Positions 1 to 29,958 of a stretch of DNA of 64,000 bases are shown one piece after another. Below the pieces are notes generated by a model that had not been told where the DNA came from, made no database searches, and was given only the letters and a program-made list of their open reading frames with translations. The DNA is from Acidihalobacter sp. Lineage in GTDB: Bacteria > Pseudomonadota > Gammaproteobacteria > DSM-5130 > Acidihalobacteraceae. A program made the translations under genes and the position numbers. Where the stretch lies: NCBI GenBank assembly GCA_027013225.1, contig JALUXU010000015.1, forward strand, positions 1 to 64,000. Direction: 5' to 3'. Position 1 is the first letter of the stretch, and each line of letters begins with the position of its first letter.

Positions 1-43
1 GGAATGTCATCAGCGGATAAGGAATGTTCGCACCGGTTCCCGT

Positions 44-77
44 AAGGCCCCATTGGCAAGGACGCTGGTGGGGCCTT
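44..77. repeat. Hairpin downstream of the HEAT-repeat gene
   Basis: A perfect 9-bp inverted repeat, AAGGCCCCA at 44-52 and TGGGGCCTT at 69-77, encloses a 16-nt loop. It starts 15 bases past the stop of the leftward HEAT-repeat gene, so it could help end that transcript. No T-run follows the stem on the minus strand, so it is not a canonical intrinsic terminator. The remaining bases 1-91 show nothing else. Confidence 0.35.
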
Positions 78-91
78 GTCACCTCTGGGGA

Positions 92-685
92 TCAGGCGTC
101 AAGGGGGTGGATACCTTGGCGCTTACCCAGCAAACGCGCTACACCCTGCCGAATTTGCAAATCTTTCGCACTCGCGCGATTAATCAGCTCTGGGAGCAGG
201 GTTTCGTCAGCTATTTTTTCCAAGAGCACGAAAGCCAGGTGCCGGTCGGAAAGATCCAAGGCGCCAAGCCGGCGTAAAAGGGCATGGCCATCTATTTGAT
301 CTACATGGGCAGATAGAACATCCAGCAACGCTGTTTTCGGCATGCTTGGGTCATCAAGGTATTCGAGCAAAAGATTAGGGTCAAAACGCTGATTGGTCGA
401 CAAAATTTCAACGATGGCTGGCACTGTTCTCAGTTCATTGTCCCGCAATGTCCGGCAAAAAGCATTCAGCGTCATGTTATCCACAATATGGTGTAAGAGC
501 TTTTCCAATCGGGTTTTGTCTGCCTGAGAGGAAAGCGTGAACATCTGCAGGAGTCGCGGTACGGCAATATCCGCTGAATCTTTGAGTTTTAGAAGTGTTT
601 TCCGAGCTTCTTGACTCTTGAATTCAGACAGCGCCAACGCTCGGTTTATGTTTCGTTCAGCACGGAAATCACGGAACAGCTTCAT
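92..685 (-). CDS. HEAT-repeat domain protein, function unknown
   Basis: This 197-residue protein consists of consecutive amphipathic helix pairs rich in Leu and Ala (for example LLEYLDDPSMPKTALLDVLS and ALDLSDRHLAFVLLEKIAD). That pattern fits an alpha-helical HEAT-like solenoid, a fold that usually binds proteins. No signal peptide, membrane span or catalytic motif is visible. The ATG at 683-685 is preceded by a good AGAGAGG ribosome-binding site. It stands alone, divergent from the 2OG oxygenase gene across a 466-bp AT-rich spacer. A perfect DnaA box, TTATCCACA, lies inside the gene at 477-485. The assignment is by fold only. Confidence 0.7.
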   Translation of the reverse strand: MKLFRDFRAERNINRALALSEFKSQEARKTLLKLKDSADIAVPRLLQMFTLSSQADKTRLEKLLHHIVDNMTLNAFCRTLRDNELRTVPAIVEILSTNQRFDPNLLLEYLDDPSMPKTALLDVLSAHVDQIDGHALLRRLGALDLSDRHLAFVLLEKIADETLLPELINRASAKDLQIRQGVARLLGKRQGIHPLDA

Positions 686-1151
686 CCATGGCCTCTCTGA
701 ACTAAATCCATATGCAAATGTTTTCCTTGAATTGTTTGTGGATTTTCACAAGATTAAACTAAGCTTACCGCATTTCCCTGAAGAGAGTGCGCTTGAACGC
801 ACGAGTTAAGTAAAAATCTAATGGTTTTCAGACGATTTCTAAAACTATATTGTTTTTAAAAATAAAATAATAGTTGTTTTAGAGTACGCCAATGCTTGTT
901 GACAACTTAAAAAAATATAACGTTATTATGATGTTCTATAAATAAACCTGACAGCTAACCACCGTCTGAAGATCTGAATCTGCTGTGGATAAGTTGTATA
1001 TGAATAAAGTGAAAAGAAGTTCTGGTTTTTTATCCAATGCTTTTCCACAGGATCTTGGACGTGATATCAACGAACTTTTATGTCACTCGCTTATAATGTG
1101 CGCTCCACGGTTGGTAAGACGCTATTCAAGCGATTATTAGGAGTGTAGGGG
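686..1151. other. AT-rich divergent spacer with DnaA-box cluster; candidate replication origin
   Basis: This 466-bp gene-free stretch contains a perfect DnaA box in reverse (TGTGGATAA, 984-992), TTTTCCACA at 1041-1049 (8 of 9 matches), TTATCCAAT at 1030-1038 (7 of 9) and TGTGGATTT at 737-745 (7 of 9). Another perfect box lies at 477-485 in the adjoining gene. Bases about 840-960 are almost all A/T and could act as a DNA-unwinding element. A sigma70-like pair, TTGACA at 899-904 and TATTAT at 924-929 (19-bp spacing), points right toward the oxygenase gene, so part of the region may simply be promoter. The origin call is inference; dnaA itself lies 23 kb away. Confidence 0.4.
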
Positions 1152-1895
1152 ATGGATTACATAAATGACCGGGTAATGCAGTCCTTGATAAGGGATGCTG
1201 AAAGTTTCCAAACCACCCACCCTTATCCGCATCAAACGATAGAAGGATTTTTAAGACCTGAAGCATTCGAGCGTTTGTGTAAAGACGCGCCTTCACAGGA
1301 AATCATGACAAAAGAAAATCGAAAGCGGGCGTATGGGCAAAAAACGCATGAACGTCTCAGCCTTCAGGTCCTGCCTCGCACAGAGAATCAGATTTCAACG
1401 AGTTGGCGGCAATTCATTGCGGAATTGCGAAGCCCTGAGTATCTTCAGTTTTTGAAGACGATGCTCGGAGTGAAACCCATGACGCCTGTCGTTTTGAGCA
1501 TGCATTGGCATTACGCGCCGGCGGGTGCGTCTGTTTCTCCCCACACGGACGCGCGCCGCAAGTTGGGTTCACATATTTTTTATTTGAATACACCTGAAGA
1601 TTGGGATGAATCATGGGGTGGCCAGACGCTGGTTCTCGATGACGGTGGACGCTTTAAACGACACTCCGCCCCGGATTTCGATCAGTTCAAAGAGGTGGCC
1701 GCTTCCCGGGTGTTGGGAAATTCCAGTTTTCTATTTGCCCAGACCGCCCGTTCATGGCATGCCGTAAGAGAGTTGCGCTGTCCTCCTGATCGTTTGCGGA
1801 AAGTTTTCATCGTGGTGGCGAATCGACTTTCTTTTCAGGTGTTGTCGCGGCGCTTGCGGCGTAAGGATGCCGATGGTTTTCCATTGTATAAGTGA
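1152..1895 (+). CDS. 2OG-Fe(II) oxygenase (prolyl-4-hydroxylase-like fold)
   Basis: The 247-residue protein carries the signature of 2-oxoglutarate/Fe(II) dioxygenases. There is an H-x-D pair in SPHTDARRKLG near residue 130, a jelly-roll segment WGGQTLVLDD, a distal iron-binding His in SWHAVREL near residue 200, and a following basic residue in RKVFIVV suited to hold 2-oxoglutarate. The family hydroxylates proteins or small molecules; the substrate here is unknown. The ATG follows AGGAGTGTAGGGG. It converges on the phosphatase gene with only 8 bp between stops. No signal peptide is seen, so it is probably cytoplasmic. Confidence 0.75.
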   Translation: MDYINDRVMQSLIRDAESFQTTHPYPHQTIEGFLRPEAFERLCKDAPSQEIMTKENRKRAYGQKTHERLSLQVLPRTENQISTSWRQFIAELRSPEYLQFLKTMLGVKPMTPVVLSMHWHYAPAGASVSPHTDARRKLGSHIFYLNTPEDWDESWGGQTLVLDDGGRFKRHSAPDFDQFKEVAASRVLGNSSFLFAQTARSWHAVRELRCPPDRLRKVFIVVANRLSFQVLSRRLRRKDADGFPLYK

Positions 1896-17669: not shown

Positions 17670-20111
<2,442 letters not shown>

Positions 20112-21188
20112 TTAACTTTCGATGATTCGACCATGTTTCACGTGGAACATTTTATGATTTGCTGGGTTTGATTGATTGACGTCATCATTTTGGATGGAAG
20201 TAAGGAAGCATTGGTGCCTGGAATCATGCAGTTCATTAACTAAATGATCTCGAGCCAAAGAATCGAGCTCCGAAGAAAGATCATCGATTAGTAGCACGCA
20301 GTCCTTATGAGTTGCATCTCGTATTATATCAAGCTGGATAATTAATAATGAAATACTGGCGAGTTTGAGCTGGCTTCTGGAAAAGAAATCCTTAACGTTT
20401 CGGCCTTCCAGCTGCAAAATCATGTCTGCCCGATGAGGTCCTGGGGATGTGTACCCAGCTTTGATATCCGCTTTTCGTGAATCATAAAGTGATTCGGCCA
20501 GCTCAACAGAGCTGGACCATCCCCTTTGATACAAAAGGCGCAGCTTTGGGTAAGGACAAAATTTTCGACTCTCGCTTAATTTGTTGTTCAAAGCAGCAAT
20601 AAAATTTTGCCTGACCCTATCTATCAAGGTTCCTGATTCATGTAATTCCTTTTCAATCGCAGTAAGCACTTGGGGTTGGGTCTTTCCACGTAAATGAGCG
20701 TTCCTTTGTTTCAAGGCATGGTTGTATCTCTTCCAGATTTTGACAAAGGTCTCATCGATGTAAAAACAGCCTTTATTGAGAAACAATCGTCTAATAACGG
20801 GAGAGCCCGTTATTAATTGATATGTTTCAGGATGGATCGCCTGAATAGGGAAGATTCTGGCAATTTCGGAGATGGAGGCTGACGTACAATTATTAACTTT
20901 GAAAACGTTTTTCGTGTTGCGATGTCTGGTGATGGTGATGTTGTCCATAAAACCGGTGGAGCAAGATCCGATAAGTGTTTTGATCCATAGTGTATCGTCC
21001 CCAAAGGAGATGATATTTTGCGTGGCGGATGTTCTGAACGACTTGCCAGTTCCAGAAAAATATATAGCTTCGAGAAGGCTGGTTTTCCCGGCGGCATTCC
21101 TACCATAGATGATATTCAGCTTTGGATGGGGCTCGAGATGAAAGTTTTCGAGATTCCTGACTCCGGCCCCTCGTAGCTCGATAAGCAT
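20112..21188 (-). CDS. recF: DNA replication and repair protein RecF
   Basis: RecF is an SMC-like ATPase that, with RecO and RecR, loads RecA at gaps. The 358-residue protein has the Walker A motif GRNAAGKTSLLEAIY near residue 30 and the Walker B-type end VLLIDDLSSELD. The ATG at 21188 gives the conserved start MLIELRG; an in-frame start 18 codons upstream adds an unrelated stretch. The C-terminal residues MFHVKH are encoded by a near-perfect parS site, so this part of the protein may be shaped by the DNA element. The gene lies between dnaN and gyrB. Confidence 0.94.
   Translation of the reverse strand: MLIELRGAGVRNLENFHLEPHPKLNIIYGRNAAGKTSLLEAIYFSGTGKSFRTSATQNIISFGDDTLWIKTLIGSCSTGFMDNITITRHRNTKNVFKVNNCTSASISEIARIFPIQAIHPETYQLITGSPVIRRLFLNKGCFYIDETFVKIWKRYNHALKQRNAHLRGKTQPQVLTAIEKELHESGTLIDRVRQNFIAALNNKLSESRKFCPYPKLRLLYQRGWSSSVELAESLYDSRKADIKAGYTSPGPHRADMILQLEGRNVKDFFSRSQLKLASISLLIIQLDIIRDATHKDCVLLIDDLSSELDSLARDHLVNELHDSRHQCFLTSIQNDDVNQSNPANHKMFHVKHGRIIES
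20134..20149. other. parS: parS centromere site for ParB, inside recF
   Basis: The 16-mer TGTTTCACGTGGAACA differs by one base from the widely conserved parS palindrome TGTTTCACGTGAAACA. The left half is the TTTCAC form and the right half the GTGGAA form known from pseudomonads. It lies in the last 40 bp of recF, 5 to 11 kb from parA/parB, where the ParB partner is encoded. No second close copy was noticed in the window. Confidence 0.85.
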
Positions 21189-21308
21189 GGTTTTAAATAT
21201 TTCAGAAGAATTGGCTCTGAAGCATGGTTTAGAGCCAAGCATAAAGTAAAATGACTATGGCGTACTGATTAGGTCATTTGGGTGTGCTTGTTGCTTTTGC
21301 TGCTGGTT

Positions 21309-22415
21309 TTAGAGCCGCATAGGCATTATCACGTAAGTGGCCTGTGGATGATGCGGGTCGGTTAGTAGTACGCTGCTGGAGGAATCATTGAATGCCATTT
21401 GGATTTCGTTGCTATCACATGCATTCAAAACGTCGATCAAATAAGCGTAATTGAATCCACATTCGATATTGAGACCATCGTATTCCGCCTTAATCTCTTC
21501 GATTGCCTCATCGTGTTCCGGATTGCTCGATTCCAAGCATATTGTTCCTTGCTTTAATGTCATTCTTATGCCTTTGTGCTTTTCGTTTGAGAGAACTGAA
21601 ACCCTTTGGATGGCGGATCGAAGCTCTTCCTTGTCAACGCGCGCGATATTTTTGTTGTTCTTTGGGATTACACGTTCATAATCAGGGAACCTGCCGTCGA
21701 TGAGTTTGGAGGTCAGATTGAGATTTTCTGATGAAAATACGATGGTGTTTTCGGCGAAATCTATTTTGAGTTCGGATCCTGAATCTTTGATGATTTTAAG
21801 CAATTCCAGAACAGTTTTTCTTGGAATTATCGGCGCGATTTGTTGTTGAGGGAGAGGAATTTCCTGGGTTGATCTATATAAAGCCAGCCTGTGGCCGTCT
21901 GTGGCTACCGCGGTAATCGAGTTGGATTTAATTTCAAAATACAGTCCGTTCAAATAGTAACGTACATCTTCAACAGCGATGGCAAAACTTGTATGTTCTA
22001 TCATGGCTGCAAGGGTGGCGGTGTCCAGTATGACTTCCAATGCGGCGGCGGGAGACTCCAATCTTGGAAAGTCGTCCGGCGGTAAAGTAGAGAGATAAAA
22101 TTTGCTTTTGCCTGATTTTAGCGTAAGGCGGTTTTTGTCGATGGATATATCGATAACCGCCTCCGAGGGTAGATTCTTGCAAATTTCCAAGAGTTTTCTC
22201 GCGGGGGCAGTGAATCTAGCCCCTTCTTCAGAGGAAATGAAAGAACAGTTCGCGATGATTTCTATTTCCAGATCTGTGGCGATCAGTCTGAGGGAATTCT
22301 TGTCGGTTTCTACTAGGATGTTTCCCAGAATGGGGATCGTTTGGCGATGCTCAATGGCTCCAGAAACCCGTTGTAAGGGTTTGAGGAGCTCTTTCTGCAG
22401 CAGCTTGATGTTCAT
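21309..22415 (-). CDS. dnaN: DNA polymerase III beta sliding clamp
   Basis: The beta clamp encircles DNA and tethers polymerase III and other proteins. From the ATG at 22415 the protein has 368 residues with three repeated clamp folds, the start MNIKLLQKELLKPLQRVSGA and the end THPQ-type tail HHPQATYVIMPMRL. A TTG at 22430 would add five residues. It starts 15 bp after the dnaA stop and is followed by recF after 120 bp, the classic order. Confidence 0.97.
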   Translation of the reverse strand: MNIKLLQKELLKPLQRVSGAIEHRQTIPILGNILVETDKNSLRLIATDLEIEIIANCSFISSEEGARFTAPARKLLEICKNLPSEAVIDISIDKNRLTLKSGKSKFYLSTLPPDDFPRLESPAAALEVILDTATLAAMIEHTSFAIAVEDVRYYLNGLYFEIKSNSITAVATDGHRLALYRSTQEIPLPQQQIAPIIPRKTVLELLKIIKDSGSELKIDFAENTIVFSSENLNLTSKLIDGRFPDYERVIPKNNKNIARVDKEELRSAIQRVSVLSNEKHKGIRMTLKQGTICLESSNPEHDEAIEEIKAEYDGLNIECGFNYAYLIDVLNACDSNEIQMAFNDSSSSVLLTDPHHPQATYVIMPMRL

Positions 22416-22430
22416 AAAACGTTTACTCAA

Positions 22431-23819: not shown

Positions 23820-24253
23820 TACCGGAACACCGAACCAAATTGGAAAACTGAGTTTTCAATACTCGAGTTGAGCATTTTGATTTTAGGCTCTTTCAGTTGA
23901 ACACCAAGAGGATTACCTCGGGGCAATGCCTGCTTTGCGGTGCAGTTTGCAGCTGGGTGGTGGATTACGTGGGGCGTGGGTCGCTATGAGCATCCAATGA
24001 GCCGTATTTAAAGCCGCACACTGACCCACAACAGTAATTTCAAGTTGAAACCATACCTTACATAATATTATGGCATAAGCCTCTCGGTGGTATACGTTTC
24101 CCGTTTCAGTATCTCTCACCACCCATTTGGATGATAACAGCTTGACAATCGATTGATCGAGCTTGACAACGACAAGTCATAAAAGTATGTTTCGCCTCTT
24201 TCCGAGAGATGTCAGTCTGCTTTGCAGATGGTTTTGAACAGGATCCATAGACC
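23820..24253. promoter_or_regulatory. dnaA-rpmH divergent intergenic region
   Basis: This 434-bp spacer is where many relatives carry oriC, but I find no DnaA box better than 7 of 9 (GGTGGATTA near 23961, TGACCCACA near 24021). It contains a 15-bp interrupted palindrome GAAAACT-G-AGTTTTC at 23843-23857, followed by ACTCGAGT at 23861-23868, both close to the dnaA start and plausible operators. The right part holds the rpmH promoter. Apart from these, the middle shows nothing recognisable. Confidence 0.5.
24139..24191 (+). promoter_or_regulatory. rpmH operon promoter with 21-bp phased direct repeat
   Basis: TTGACA at 24163-24168 and TATGTT at 24186-24191, separated by 17 bp, form a good sigma70-type promoter 63 bp upstream of rpmH. 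The 10-mer AGCTTGACAA occurs at 24139-24148 and again at 24160-24169, exactly 21 bp apart, so the upstream copy sits on the same DNA face two turns away. Confidence 0.5.
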
Positions 24254-25004: not shown

Positions 25005-26658
25005 TTTGCGTCCCCTGCTCTATGTCTCCTTGTTTTTCGTTTTATTCCTGATCTGGCAGGCGTGGCAGCAAGATCATTCGACGCCTCGTTCTCAACAATC
25101 GGTGGCTCAAAAATCCATGAGCAATAGCGGATCGGCTACCCCAACATTGCCTTCGACTTCCAAGGGAATGGCTTCGGTTGCAGCGCAGCCCGGCGCGAAA
25201 ATGCTCACAAAAGGCGAGATCGTTAAAATCAGGACTGATGTACTTGAATTAAGCATAGATACGCGTGGCGCGGGTATTGTACAGGCATTGCTACCCACTT
25301 ATCCGGTTTCAGTTAATAAACCCAATGAGCCCTATCCTTTGATGTATGACAAGGGCCGAGCCGTATTCGTGGCCTTGTCAGGCGTCGTGCCTGGCCACCA
25401 AGGTGAAGTCGCTCCGGGTGAATTTGCCTTGTTCAAGGCCCCGAAAACCAGTTATGTGCTCAAGCCGGGAGAAAAGACGCTCGCGATCCCATTCACATGG
25501 ACAAGCCCATCAGGTATCAAGGTGATCAAGACTTATGTTTTCCATCGGGGCAGTTTTCTGGTTGACGTCAACTTCAAGATCATCAATAAGGCAAGTAAGC
25601 CATGGGTTGGAAGCATTTATGGCCAGATTATGCGCAGTCCCTCCGGGAAGGGTTATAACTTACTGGACGTGAATACGCATTCTTATCTCGGAGCTGCTTA
25701 TTATGATGGCAGCTATCAGAAAGTCGGATTCGACGGAATGGCGAAAAATCCTCTCGATAAGTCGGTGAGTGATGGCTGGATCGCCATGGTCGAACATTAT
25801 TTTCTAGTGGCCTGGATTCCGCCGCGAAAGGAAGATTTCAAGTTTTTTACGCGCGCGCTTCAGGATAATGGTGGCGAGCGTTATTTGATAGGTTTCCAGT
25901 CTCCCTTGCTTCAGGTGACGCCGGGCGATAGCACCTCGCTGGATACGCGTATGTGGATAGGCCCTGAGCTGCAAGAGCACCTTGCATCTGTTGCTCCCGG
26001 GCTGAATTTGACCACGGGATACGGCATATTCACATTCATTTCCCAACCGCTTTATTGGTTGCTGGCCAGGATTCATGGCGTCGTGGGTAACTGGGGATGG
26101 TCCATAGTTCTACTCACCTTGATGATTAAACTGGCTTTTTACAAGCTTTCCGAAACGAGTTATCGCTCCATGGCGAGAATGCGGAGGCTTCAGCCAAAGC
26201 TGCAAGCCTTGAAGGAAAAATTTGGTGATGATCGCCAGCGCCTGGGCCAGGCGACGATGGAGTTGTATAAAAAGGAAAAGGTCAATCCATTGGGCGGCTG
26301 TTTACCCATGATTGTGCAGATTCCGGTATTCATCGCACTCTACTGGGTATTGCTGGAAAGCGTCGAATTGCGGCAAGCCCCCTTTATCCTTTGGATTCGG
26401 GATCTGTCCGCTCCGGATCCTTATTTCGTTTTGCCCATCCTGATGGGTATCACTATGCTGCTTCAGCAAAAACTGAACCCGGCACCTCTCGATCCTCTGC
26501 AGAAGAGGGTGATGACCATTTTGCCAATGGCATTCACAGTTTTCTTCGCCTTTTTCCCCTCGGGTTTGGTGTTGTATTGGCTGACTAACAATATATTGTC
26601 GATTGCTCAGCAGTGGGTGATTACCCGGCGTATTGAAAAGGCGGCTGAGGCTGGCTGA
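24997..26658 (+). CDS. yidC: Membrane protein insertase YidC
   Basis: YidC inserts and folds inner-membrane proteins alone or with SecYEG. The 553-residue protein has an N-terminal membrane helix (PLLYVSLFFVLFLIWQAW), a large periplasmic domain (about 60-330) of the gram-negative type, and a C-terminal Oxa1-like core. In that core WGWSIVLLTLMIKLAFYKLSE carries the conserved hydrophilic-groove Arg/Lys region and NPLGGCLPMIVQIPVFIALYW is easily recognised. The ATG at 24997 sits in the yidD end; a longer frame upstream reads through yidD and is spurious. Confidence 0.96.
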   Translation: MDNLRPLLYVSLFFVLFLIWQAWQQDHSTPRSQQSVAQKSMSNSGSATPTLPSTSKGMASVAAQPGAKMLTKGEIVKIRTDVLELSIDTRGAGIVQALLPTYPVSVNKPNEPYPLMYDKGRAVFVALSGVVPGHQGEVAPGEFALFKAPKTSYVLKPGEKTLAIPFTWTSPSGIKVIKTYVFHRGSFLVDVNFKIINKASKPWVGSIYGQIMRSPSGKGYNLLDVNTHSYLGAAYYDGSYQKVGFDGMAKNPLDKSVSDGWIAMVEHYFLVAWIPPRKEDFKFFTRALQDNGGERYLIGFQSPLLQVTPGDSTSLDTRMWIGPELQEHLASVAPGLNLTTGYGIFTFISQPLYWLLARIHGVVGNWGWSIVLLTLMIKLAFYKLSETSYRSMARMRRLQPKLQALKEKFGDDRQRLGQATMELYKKEKVNPLGGCLPMIVQIPVFIALYWVLLESVELRQAPFILWIRDLSAPDPYFVLPILMGITMLLQQKLNPAPLDPLQKRVMTILPMAFTVFFAFFPSGLVLYWLTNNILSIAQQWVITRRIEKAAEAG

Positions 26659-26690
26659 GCCGAGCACCGAAAAGATGAGGCGAAGGCGGC

Positions 26691-28046
26691 ATGTACTCCC
26701 AAAGCGAGCTTCAAGTTCATGGTGATACCATCGCGGCGATATCGACGCCTCCAGGCACGGGTGCGATAGGTGTTATTCGGCTTTCGGGGCCGCAAAGTTT
26801 TTCTATAGCCAGTGACCTGGCCGGCGACCTGCCTCCTCCTAGGCAGGCCGGATTACGTCGCTTGCGCGATGAGGCGGGGATGGTGATCGATGAGGCAGTG
26901 GTAATCGCCTTTCCAGGGCCGAATTCGTTTACTGGCGAAGACGTGGTCGAATTACAGGGACATGGCGGCCCGGCCGTTCTTGAAATGATTCTCGAGCGAG
27001 TCATCGAGCTGGGGGGGCGGCCTGCGCGTCCAGGAGAATTTTCGGAACGCGCTTTTCTCAATGGACGTATCGATCTTGCTCAGGCAGAAGCGATCGCCGA
27101 CCTCATAGCCGCATCCAGTCGAACAGCGGCGCGATGTGCATTGCGCAGCCTGCAAGGAGGATTTTCCAGAAAAATCCAGATGTTGGTCGAAGATTTGATA
27201 CGTCTTCGGGTTCGCGTGGAAGCAGATCTCGATTTTTCAGATGAAGATATCGATCCCAGTGCGGCTCAGGAAATTGCTTCCAGGCTAGAAGCCATGCGAT
27301 CAAATCTAGAAGAATTGCTTAATCAGGCGCGTCAAGGCGTGCGCCTTGGACGGGGCTTCGTTGTGGTTTTGAGTGGCCCTCCCAATGTTGGAAAATCCAG
27401 CTTGTTAAATCGCCTTGCGGACAGAGACGTGGCAATAGTCACGCCCATCCCTGGCACAACCCGCGACCTGTTGCGTGCGCATATCGAATTTGAAGGAGTG
27501 AGCGTTGAGGTCGTTGATACAGCCGGCTTGCGCGAAACCTCGGATCCGATCGAACAGGAAGGCGTTCGGCGCGCGAACGAGGCCCTTGCACAGGCCGACT
27601 TGATTCTGCATTTGTTAGATGATTGCCATCCGGAACTTTCGATCGCATCCGAGAGCTTGGAGGCCAGCGATGTTCCCGTGCTTCAGATCTACAATAAAAT
27701 CGATTTGAGCAAAGGCGAAGCCGGGCGAAGGAAAGATGACGCCTATGGCGTGTCGGCGCTGGAGGGTACCGGCATGCAGGCGTTGCGTACAGGACTGATG
27801 GAGAAATTGGGGCTATCCGAGACGCCCGAAAATGCTTTTATAGCCAGAGCGCGACATGTAGCTGCGCTGAAATCCTGCCTGAATGGCTTGTGCCATGCAC
27901 AAGAAGTCCATGCCGAAGGTTTTGGCGCCGAATTGCTTGCGGAAGAATTGCGGGCCGCCCAGAATAGTCTGGGAGAGATAACCGGCCAGGTAAGCAATGA
28001 AGATCTGCTTGGAGCTATCTTTTCCACTTTTTGCATAGGCAAATAG
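26691..28046 (+). CDS. mnmE: tRNA modification GTPase MnmE
   Basis: MnmE works with MnmG to install the 5-carboxymethylaminomethyl group on wobble uridine of several tRNAs. The 451-residue protein has the formyl-THF-binding N-terminal domain (DTIAAISTPPGTGAIGVIRL), the G1 motif GPPNVGKSSLLN, the switch region DTAGLRET, the G4 motif NKID and the invariant C-terminal CIGK. It follows yidC by 32 bp and is followed 28 bp later by its partner mnmG. Confidence 0.97.
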   Translation: MYSQSELQVHGDTIAAISTPPGTGAIGVIRLSGPQSFSIASDLAGDLPPPRQAGLRRLRDEAGMVIDEAVVIAFPGPNSFTGEDVVELQGHGGPAVLEMILERVIELGGRPARPGEFSERAFLNGRIDLAQAEAIADLIAASSRTAARCALRSLQGGFSRKIQMLVEDLIRLRVRVEADLDFSDEDIDPSAAQEIASRLEAMRSNLEELLNQARQGVRLGRGFVVVLSGPPNVGKSSLLNRLADRDVAIVTPIPGTTRDLLRAHIEFEGVSVEVVDTAGLRETSDPIEQEGVRRANEALAQADLILHLLDDCHPELSIASESLEASDVPVLQIYNKIDLSKGEAGRRKDDAYGVSALEGTGMQALRTGLMEKLGLSETPENAFIARARHVAALKSCLNGLCHAQEVHAEGFGAELLAEELRAAQNSLGEITGQVSNEDLLGAIFSTFCIGK

Positions 28047-28074
28047 AGACGGGCCAAAATAGGCGAATAAGGAG

Positions 28075-29958
28075 ATGGTAGAACGCTTCGACGTGATTGT
28101 TGTCGGCGGAGGGCATGCCGGTACAGAAGCCGCGCTGGCCTCTGCGCGAATGGGGGCGCGCACCTTACTGCTGACCCACAACATCGAAACCATCGGTCAA
28201 ATGAGCTGCAATCCGGCGATAGGCGGGATTGGGAAGGGGCATTTGGTGCGCGAAATCGATGCTTTGGGTGGGGTCATGGCGCGGGCGGCGGATCACGCCG
28301 GGATTCATTGGCGCACCCTCAATGCCCGCAAAGGCCCTGCCGTTAGAGCCACGCGGTCGCAATGCGACCGCGCCCTTTATAAAGCGTATATCCGCGAGGC
28401 CATAGAAACCCAAGAGAATTTATGCGTCTTTCAACAGGCCGCCGATGATCTGATCGTGAGTGGGGATCAGGTGCATGGCGTTATTACTCAAATGGGCTTG
28501 CGTATATATGGACAAGCTGTGGTATTGACGGCAGGCACCTTTCTGGCAGGAAAAATCCATGTGGGGCCGGCGCAATCAGACGGTGGGCGTATGGGCGACG
28601 CCCCCGCATTGCGCTTGGCGGGACGGATGCGGGAATTAATGCCGCGTGTCAGTCGCCTGAAAACCGGAACCCCTCCGCGTATCGATGGGCGCAGCATAGA
28701 TTATTCCGCCATGGAAGTTCAGCCCGGCGATGAACCCAGGCCGGTATTTTCCTTTATGGGCGACCCCAAAGATCATCCCCCTCAGCGGGTATGCCATATT
28801 ACGCGCACCAATCCCCATACGCATGAGATCATTGCCGCCTCATTGGACCGTTCTCCTTTGTATACTGGCCAGATCGAAGGTGTGGGGCCACGATATTGTC
28901 CTTCCATCGAAGACAAGATCGTGCGTTTTGCCGATAAGGATTCACATCAGATTTTTGTCGAGCCGGAGGGATTACGCACCACTGAAGTTTATCCTAACGG
29001 CATCTCCACCAGTTTGCCGCATGATGTGCAACTCGCTGTGGTGCGTTCTATTCGCGGGTTTGAAAAAGCGCATATTACTCGCCCCGGCTATGCAATCGAA
29101 TATGACTTTTTTGATCCACGGGACCTGCGTCCCAGCTTGGAAACACGCCGCTTGAGCGGTTTGTTCTTTGCTGGCCAGATCAATGGCACCACAGGCTATG
29201 AAGAAGCCGCTGCTCAAGGCTTGGTGGCGGGCATCAATGCCGCGCGGCACGTATTTGGCTTGCCGTCCTGGATACCGCGCCGTGATCAAGCTTATATGGG
29301 CGTTTTGATCGATGACCTCATCGCGCGCGGAACCCAGGAACCTTATCGCATGTTCACCAGCCGCGCCGAATACCGGCTGTTGCTACGCGAAGACAATGCC
29401 GATTTACGCCTTACCCCTCTTGGCCGTGAACTCGGGCTGGTCGATGATGTGCGTTGGCGGGCATTTGAAGCAAAACGAAATGCAATCGAGCGCGAGCAGT
29501 TACGTTGTGCTGAAACATTGATCAAATCAGAGGCGCTGCATCAAGCCGGAATCGGAGGGCCGACACAGATGACCCTAAACGGTTCCGTCCGAGTGCAAAG
29601 TTTGCTCTGCCGGCCAGGGATCACCCTCGATTTCCTCGAAGAAAGCGGGCTTTACACGCCGCTTTCGGATGATCAGACGGTACGCGAACAGGTCGAAATA
29701 CAGTACAAATACGCCGGCTATATAGATCGGCAGCAAAATGAAATTAAAAAACGTCGCGCTCATGAGGAGTCGAGCATTCCCGAAGACATGGATTTTTCCA
29801 TGGTTGCCGGCTTGTCACATGAAGCGCGCCAGTTGCTGGAGAATCATCGACCGTCTACTGTGGGGCAGGCGGCCCGTATCGCCGGCGTGACGCCGGCGGC
29901 CATTTCACTTTTGCTGATCCATCTGCGCAAGCGCCATGGTCAGCACCGCTCGGCGTGA
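28075..29958 (+). CDS. mnmG: tRNA uridine 5-carboxymethylaminomethyl enzyme MnmG
   Basis: MnmG (GidA) is the FAD-dependent partner of MnmE. The 627-residue protein starts with the dinucleotide-binding motif [20 protein letters not shown], has [22 protein letters not shown], and the C-terminal MnmE-interacting helices ending near [14 protein letters not shown]. The ribosome-binding sequence AAGGAG touches the ATG at 28075 directly (28069-28074), an unusually short spacing, yet no other in-frame start is near. It overlaps rsmG by 4 bp. Confidence 0.97.

Follow-up and report, generated by a model that had tools for sequence, protein, structure and literature searches.

A predicted chromosomal replication origin displaced about 21 kb from dnaA in an Acidihalobacter draft genome

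Where does replication of this Acidihalobacter chromosome begin? The stretch of DNA analysed here (the window) comprises the first 64,000 nucleotides of contig C15, part of a draft of 73 contigs and 2.27 Mb, and it carries a cluster of DnaA boxes at its left end, 21.4 kb from the dnaA-dnaN junction and 22.8 kb from the dnaA start. A preliminary description took the cluster for a possible oriC, and this reading is supported by a layout equal to the one shared by four relatives' dnaA-dnaN origins, together with a GC-skew minimum close by. We conclude that the intergenic spacer at 686-1151 is very probably the chromosomal oriC, predicted to be the family's ancestral dnaA-dnaN origin displaced by about 21 kb, with the old spacer cut to 15 bp. 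The features are collected in Table 1.

Table 1. Features bearing on the origin question, in window coordinates
Feature	Position	Strand	Remarks
Element end, presumably IS66-like	1..126	.	Starts GTAAGCG; shared with ends of C56 and C4; 8-bp target duplication TTTGCTGG
HEAT-repeat/Ser-Thr kinase gene, 5' part	127..685	-	Split by IS insertion; remainder on C67
Perfect DnaA box TTATCCACA, within coding sequence	477..485	+	Judged incidental, outside oriC
Candidate oriC core	822..1060	-	Same order as relatives' dnaA-dnaN origins on - strand; conserved layout and GC-skew minimum
A/T-rich putative unwinding region, 78% A/T	826..945	.
DnaA-trio-like CTAAAACAACTATTATT	866..882	-
Weak third DnaA box TTGTCAACA, 7/9	897..905	-	87 bp from perfect box
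Perfect DnaA box TTATCCACA	984..992	-	Inverted to outer box, 57 bp apart
Outer DnaA box TTTTCCACA, 8/9	1041..1049	+	Counterpart of relatives' dnaA-proximal inverted box
2OG-Fe(II) oxygenase gene	1152..1895	+	Other flank of candidate oriC
gyrB, recF, dnaN, dnaA	17670..23819	-	Now lagging relative to oriC at 0.9 kb
parS-like TGTTTCACGTGGAACA	20134..20149	.	recF/gyrB junction
Former oriC site, dnaA-dnaN spacer	22416..22430	.	15 bp, no box

The two perfect boxes at 477 and 984 and the 8-of-9 box at 1041 are present as first described, as are weaker boxes, which start at 737, 897, 999 and 1030. Those at 984, 1041 and 897, the latter two imperfect, are clustered within the spacer beside easily melted A/T-rich DNA. 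A run of about 120 nearly pure A/T bases had been claimed here; the tract is indeed the window's most A/T-rich 120 bp, at just the 78% given in Table 1, and in the 213 kb of joined sequence described below only one 100-bp stretch is less stable than 846-945. The argument from rarity, that two perfect boxes within 510 bp are notable, needs recasting. The window has five perfect boxes (at 477, 984, 17932, 18265 and 56791), two of them in gyrB and closer to each other than 477 is to 984, so the raw count is not a strong argument; it is the arrangement of 984, 1041 and 897 that goes beyond chance. The box at 477, previously counted in the cluster, lies inside the HEAT-repeat/kinase coding sequence and has no counterpart in the conserved layout, and we reject it as a part of oriC.

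That layout emerges from comparison with G001, a member of the same genus assembled as one contig, and with G002-G004, of the same family. Each of their dnaA-dnaN spacers (247-261 bp as cut for comparison) contains two perfect boxes that face one another at a distance of 57-58 bp. A third box with 0-2 mismatches follows 85-89 bp on, CTATTAyTA a further 23 bp on and then A/T-rich DNA, in the order box(-)-57/58-box(+)-85..89-box(+)-23-CTATTAyTA, with three trios in a row at the last position. Read on its minus strand, the window spacer has a box at 1049-1041, after 57 bp a box at 992-984, after 87 bp the weak box at 905-897, after 23 bp a CTA at 882, and then A/T-rich DNA. The reversed window thus gives 57/87/23 against 57-58/85-89/23 in all four relatives, with only the CTA kept at the last position. 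As in the relatives, this CTA begins 23 bp past the first base of the third box, and a run CTATTATT follows 9 bp further; counting from where that box ends, the CTA lies at 14 bases and an unbroken series of three trios at 23 bases. Raw alignment scores alone, with forward about equal to reverse for three of the four relatives, do not settle the orientation. We rejected the forward orientation because neither a third box nor A/T-rich DNA lies on the side it would require.

A search with the spacer DNA itself in 36 other genomes returned a single 27-bp match; the spacer is too divergent for sequence search and layouts were therefore compared instead. Each of the five whole genomes has the pair TGTGGAWAA-N46-51-TTATCCACA at a single place (a control pattern at none): in this 2.27 Mb draft that place is the window spacer, and in the other four genomes it is the dnaA-dnaN spacer. 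Even the pair alone was absent from all 20,000 dinucleotide-shuffled copies of the window spacer. Under a rule set after inspecting these sequences (third box with at most two mismatches, CTA at 23), the full layout was found at the window spacer and the G001 and G004 origins only (213 kb and 635 kb searched), and it was not found in 1.31 Mb of other loci.

The candidate lies near a contig end, and GC skew could be followed across it by joining a second contig. Window positions 1-126 are identical to stretches apparently at the ends of contigs C56 and C4, so the assembly was broken by a repeat, which we take to be an IS66-like element. It has at least three copies (window 1-126, C67:1-121, C56:40906-41031 and C4:23318-23443). 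The kinase frame, of which the window covers residues 8-195, resumes at C67:122-1984, corresponding to residues 191-818 of the G001 orthologue, and the gene is intact in G001-G004. Both flanks carry the 8-bp duplication TTTGCTGG beside GTAAGCG ends. C67 (reversed) is thus joined to C15 by a simple IS insertion.

The preliminary description had asked whether the cumulative skew minimum falls at about 0.9 kb or at about 24 kb. Over the joined 213 kb the curve is lowest at position -2 of the window, that is, at the junction and 0.9 kb from the boxes, and there is no skew switch at 22-24 kb. Skew is about -0.05 over much of the left side and about +0.05 on the right as far as 44 kb. A one-step model was fitted to three ranges that stop at 44 kb on the right side, and its best step falls at +178; for the widest of these, which begins at the left end of C67, the 5-95% bootstrap interval runs from -5.8 to +7.7 kb. 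Moving the step to dnaA costs 21.5-29.6 log-likelihood units in these three fits. When all 213 kb are fitted, the optimum lies at -20 kb (5-95%, -39 to -9 kb), 0.9 kb being 1.3 units worse and dnaA 23.7 units worse; the step shifts with the inclusion of 44-87 kb because skew fades there to about -0.01. Hence no fit admits dnaA as the switch, and the switch itself is located less precisely than the cumulative curve would imply. As a separate observation, the skew of about -0.01 from 44 kb on is seen despite the genes at 44-60 kb lying on the plus strand, and a later inversion there is possible. In G001 and G004, sampled in 20 stretches per genome, the skew flips sign at dnaA: roughly half the chromosome, to the right of dnaA, has mostly positive skew, and the remaining half has negative skew.

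If the origin has moved, the genes left behind now lie on the other strand relative to replication, and their base composition records this. Fourfold-degenerate sites differ between lagging and leading genes in both G001 and G004. The coding-sense fourfold skew of dnaA, dnaN, recF and gyrB is -0.259 here compared with -0.006 and -0.014 in G001 and G004 (Fisher p about 1e-4), such that the operon carries lagging-strand skew, and no significant shift is seen in the rpmH-side genes (p 0.07 and 0.41). The atp-glm genes are also lower (-0.079 here, +0.072 and +0.077 in the relatives; p 0.003), though they would be leading if the origin has moved. The 25 kb immediately left of the candidate oriC has intermediate fourfold-site skew.

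Gene order around the candidate differs from that of the relatives as well. On C67, beside the candidate, lie the kinase gene, pilU and pilT; in G001 kinase-pilU-pilT runs straight into glnE, and in G004 two more genes intervene before glnE. Here glnE lies across the candidate from the kinase side, in the opposite direction. In G001 and G004 the atp-glm cluster adjoins parB; here it is at 23-31.5 kb of C67. The changed positions of glnE and atp-glm imply more than one rearrangement of the region. The names glnE, pilU, pilT, atp, glm, priA, mnmE, mnmG and recG were read from the sequences, beyond Pfam hits.

Several features of the left-behind operon deserve mention in their own right. The parS-like site occupies the same place in G001, and in G004 with one base different; it is about 19 kb from the new candidate oriC, compared with about 2.3 kb from the origin in G001. 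The gyrB coding sequence holds two perfect boxes in opposite orientation, at 17932-17940 and 18265-18273, and the gyrB genes of G001 and G004 have no perfect box. This pair was rejected as an origin on boxes, skew or both. DnaN (window 20112-22415 region) is unusually divergent (44-46% to G001 and G004, against 65% between those two); RecF evolves rapidly throughout (34-40%), and dnaA and gyrB stand at about 68-74%. In a DnaN comparison that gave a match in 259 of 274 genomes of the class, the two best other matches were members of its own family, and replacement by a foreign dnaN as the cause of the lost spacer is thus not supported, by a small margin.

Could replication still start at the dnaA locus, in the dnaA-rpmH or the dnaA-dnaN spacer, with the 0.9 kb cluster merely binding DnaA or serving regulation? 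In the relatives the origin lies there, and dnaA, rpmH, parA/parB and the parS-like site all lie at 20-32 kb. However, the dnaA-dnaN spacer is reduced to 15 bp without a box, the skew switch is absent and the operon has acquired its lagging-strand skew. The dnaA-rpmH spacer was said to lack any box better than 7 of 9, and so it does (7/9 matches at 23959, 24022 and 24126); it was also called the usual alternative, a view the relatives correct, their ancestral site being the dnaA-dnaN spacer. With neither a better box nor a skew switch, we rejected dnaA-rpmH as an origin, and we consider a working origin anywhere at the dnaA locus to be very improbable.

A shade less credible still is an origin elsewhere, for example in the A/T-rich spacer before priA at about 51.2-51.4 kb of C67, where there are three boxes (0, 1 and 1 mismatches), or on another contig, most of which could not be oriented. 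Against this stand the single occurrence of the box pair in the whole draft genome and, for the priA spacer, negative skew on either side of -51 kb, exclusion of that position from all step-model intervals, and boxes that run in the same direction without the family layout; the cluster was rejected as an origin on boxes, skew or both. In itself the group of three same-strand boxes at about 51190-51390 of C67, before a priA-like gene, may be a DnaA-controlled promoter. DnaA titration or reactivation sites of the datA/DARS type also contain DnaA boxes, and the cluster in the window could be read as such a site, or as a DnaA-regulated promoter of its neighbours. We give this no more credence than an origin elsewhere: the spacer copies a complete oriC layout, A/T-rich region included, and is located at the skew minimum, and the G001 orthologue of the oxygenase gene, at 1.31 Mb, has no box in front.

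In the model we propose, DnaA would bind the inverted pair at 1041-1049 and 984-992, spread across the weak box at 897-905 as far as the trio-like repeats (866-882), and melt the A/T-rich DNA around 826-945, as would be expected from known origins. The ancestral oriC would now have the HEAT-kinase gene on one flank and the 2OG-oxygenase/glnE side on the other, with its orientation relative to dnaA unchanged, and the old dnaA-dnaN spacer would have been deleted to 15 bp. Because of this move, the dnaA-dnaN-recF-gyrB operon would have passed from the leading to the lagging strand. As for the route, a segment bearing oriC may have been duplicated and the first copy then lost. This fits better than two nested inversions, rejected here because their simplest form would turn oriC round. 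The candidate may be the sole origin, as the single box pair in 2.27 Mb suggests.

How does this predicted origin compare with known ones? It resembles the dnaA-dnaN origins of G001-G004 in its inverted pair and third box at the family spacings, its CTA at 23 bp, its A/T-rich end and its orientation to dnaA. It differs from them in having other genes as neighbours, 21.4 kb away from the dnaA-dnaN junction, and in its weaker first and third boxes and trio run. In E. coli, oriC lies beside mnmG (gidA) and mioC. The candidate shares with the E. coli type an origin away from dnaA (PMC4285127). Unlike that type, its neighbours are kinase and oxygenase genes, and the stretch before mnmG (26650-28100; mnmG at 28075-29958) has only two 7/9 boxes, at 27162 and 28020, with no 8/9-or-better box anywhere from 25952 to 47190 in the window. 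The mnmG region was rejected as an origin on boxes, skew or both. Like the DnaA-trio basal unwinding system (BUS), the candidate has a box, 14 bases, CTA and A/T-rich DNA. PMC8287927 codes BUS as three or more trios at most 16 bases from a box, and the window's three-trio run, at 23 bases, lies beyond that limit.

Origins away from dnaA are already known as a kind, and the present one appears to be a new case. According to published work, the neighbourhood of oriC is not strictly conserved (PMC4285127), oriC both adjoins dnaA and lies near the skew switch in 342 of 568 chromosomes (PMC2275245), and oriC translocations have been inferred from asymmetry in two bacterial genomes and mostly in archaea (PMC3269017). 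In the part of the literature on oriC location and relocation that we covered (reviews, methods and engineered cases), this relocation was not found.

Further moves may have occurred in the class. Among 30 dnaN loci (best matches, the window included), the dnaA-dnaN spacer is 184-411 bp long with boxes in 25 and 11-52 bp long without boxes in five; a box-less spacer below 60 bp occurs at 4 of the 29 other loci. One of these, in G076, measures 52 bp, and a box pair lies between mnmE and mnmG (C6:185890-185933), an E. coli-like place. In G234 the spacer is 11 bp, and an A/T-rich stretch near recG (C31:174175-174240) holds TGTGGAAAA and TTATCCACA at a distance of 57 bp. Both genomes, from other gammaproteobacterial families, are like the window in combining a short, box-less spacer with a box pair elsewhere, and their neighbouring genes differ from the window's. 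The G234 pair is a candidate moved origin and the G076 pair a candidate displaced box pair, on sequence grounds and as leads only. In G069 and G165, also with short box-less spacers, no box pair was found elsewhere. A stricter, perfect pair is present in 13 of 253 class genomes: in six (G002, G070, G072, G116, G148 and G166) it lies at most 350 bp upstream of the listed dnaN, in G063 it is on a different contig from dnaN, and for six the place of dnaN is absent from the listing. The offsets between the first inverted boxes in dnaA-dnaN origins cluster at about 35, 46 and 57 bp, in steps of about one helical turn.

In a broader context, the states before and after a move are found here within one genus, the deletion of the old site can be seen, the genes left behind have already shifted in base composition, and origin relocation thereby becomes testable. 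Genomes rotated or annotated at dnaA place the origin 21 kb off in such cases, and the layout of the relatives offers a pattern for locating other moved origins. We regard it as an even call that a complete oriC moved as a unit, in the same orientation and within one genus, leaving dnaA, dnaN, gyrB and parS on the lagging side, and that such moves may have happened repeatedly in Gammaproteobacteria, the linkage of oriC and dnaA being readily lost. If true, this pair of lineages would allow the cost of losing that linkage to be measured.
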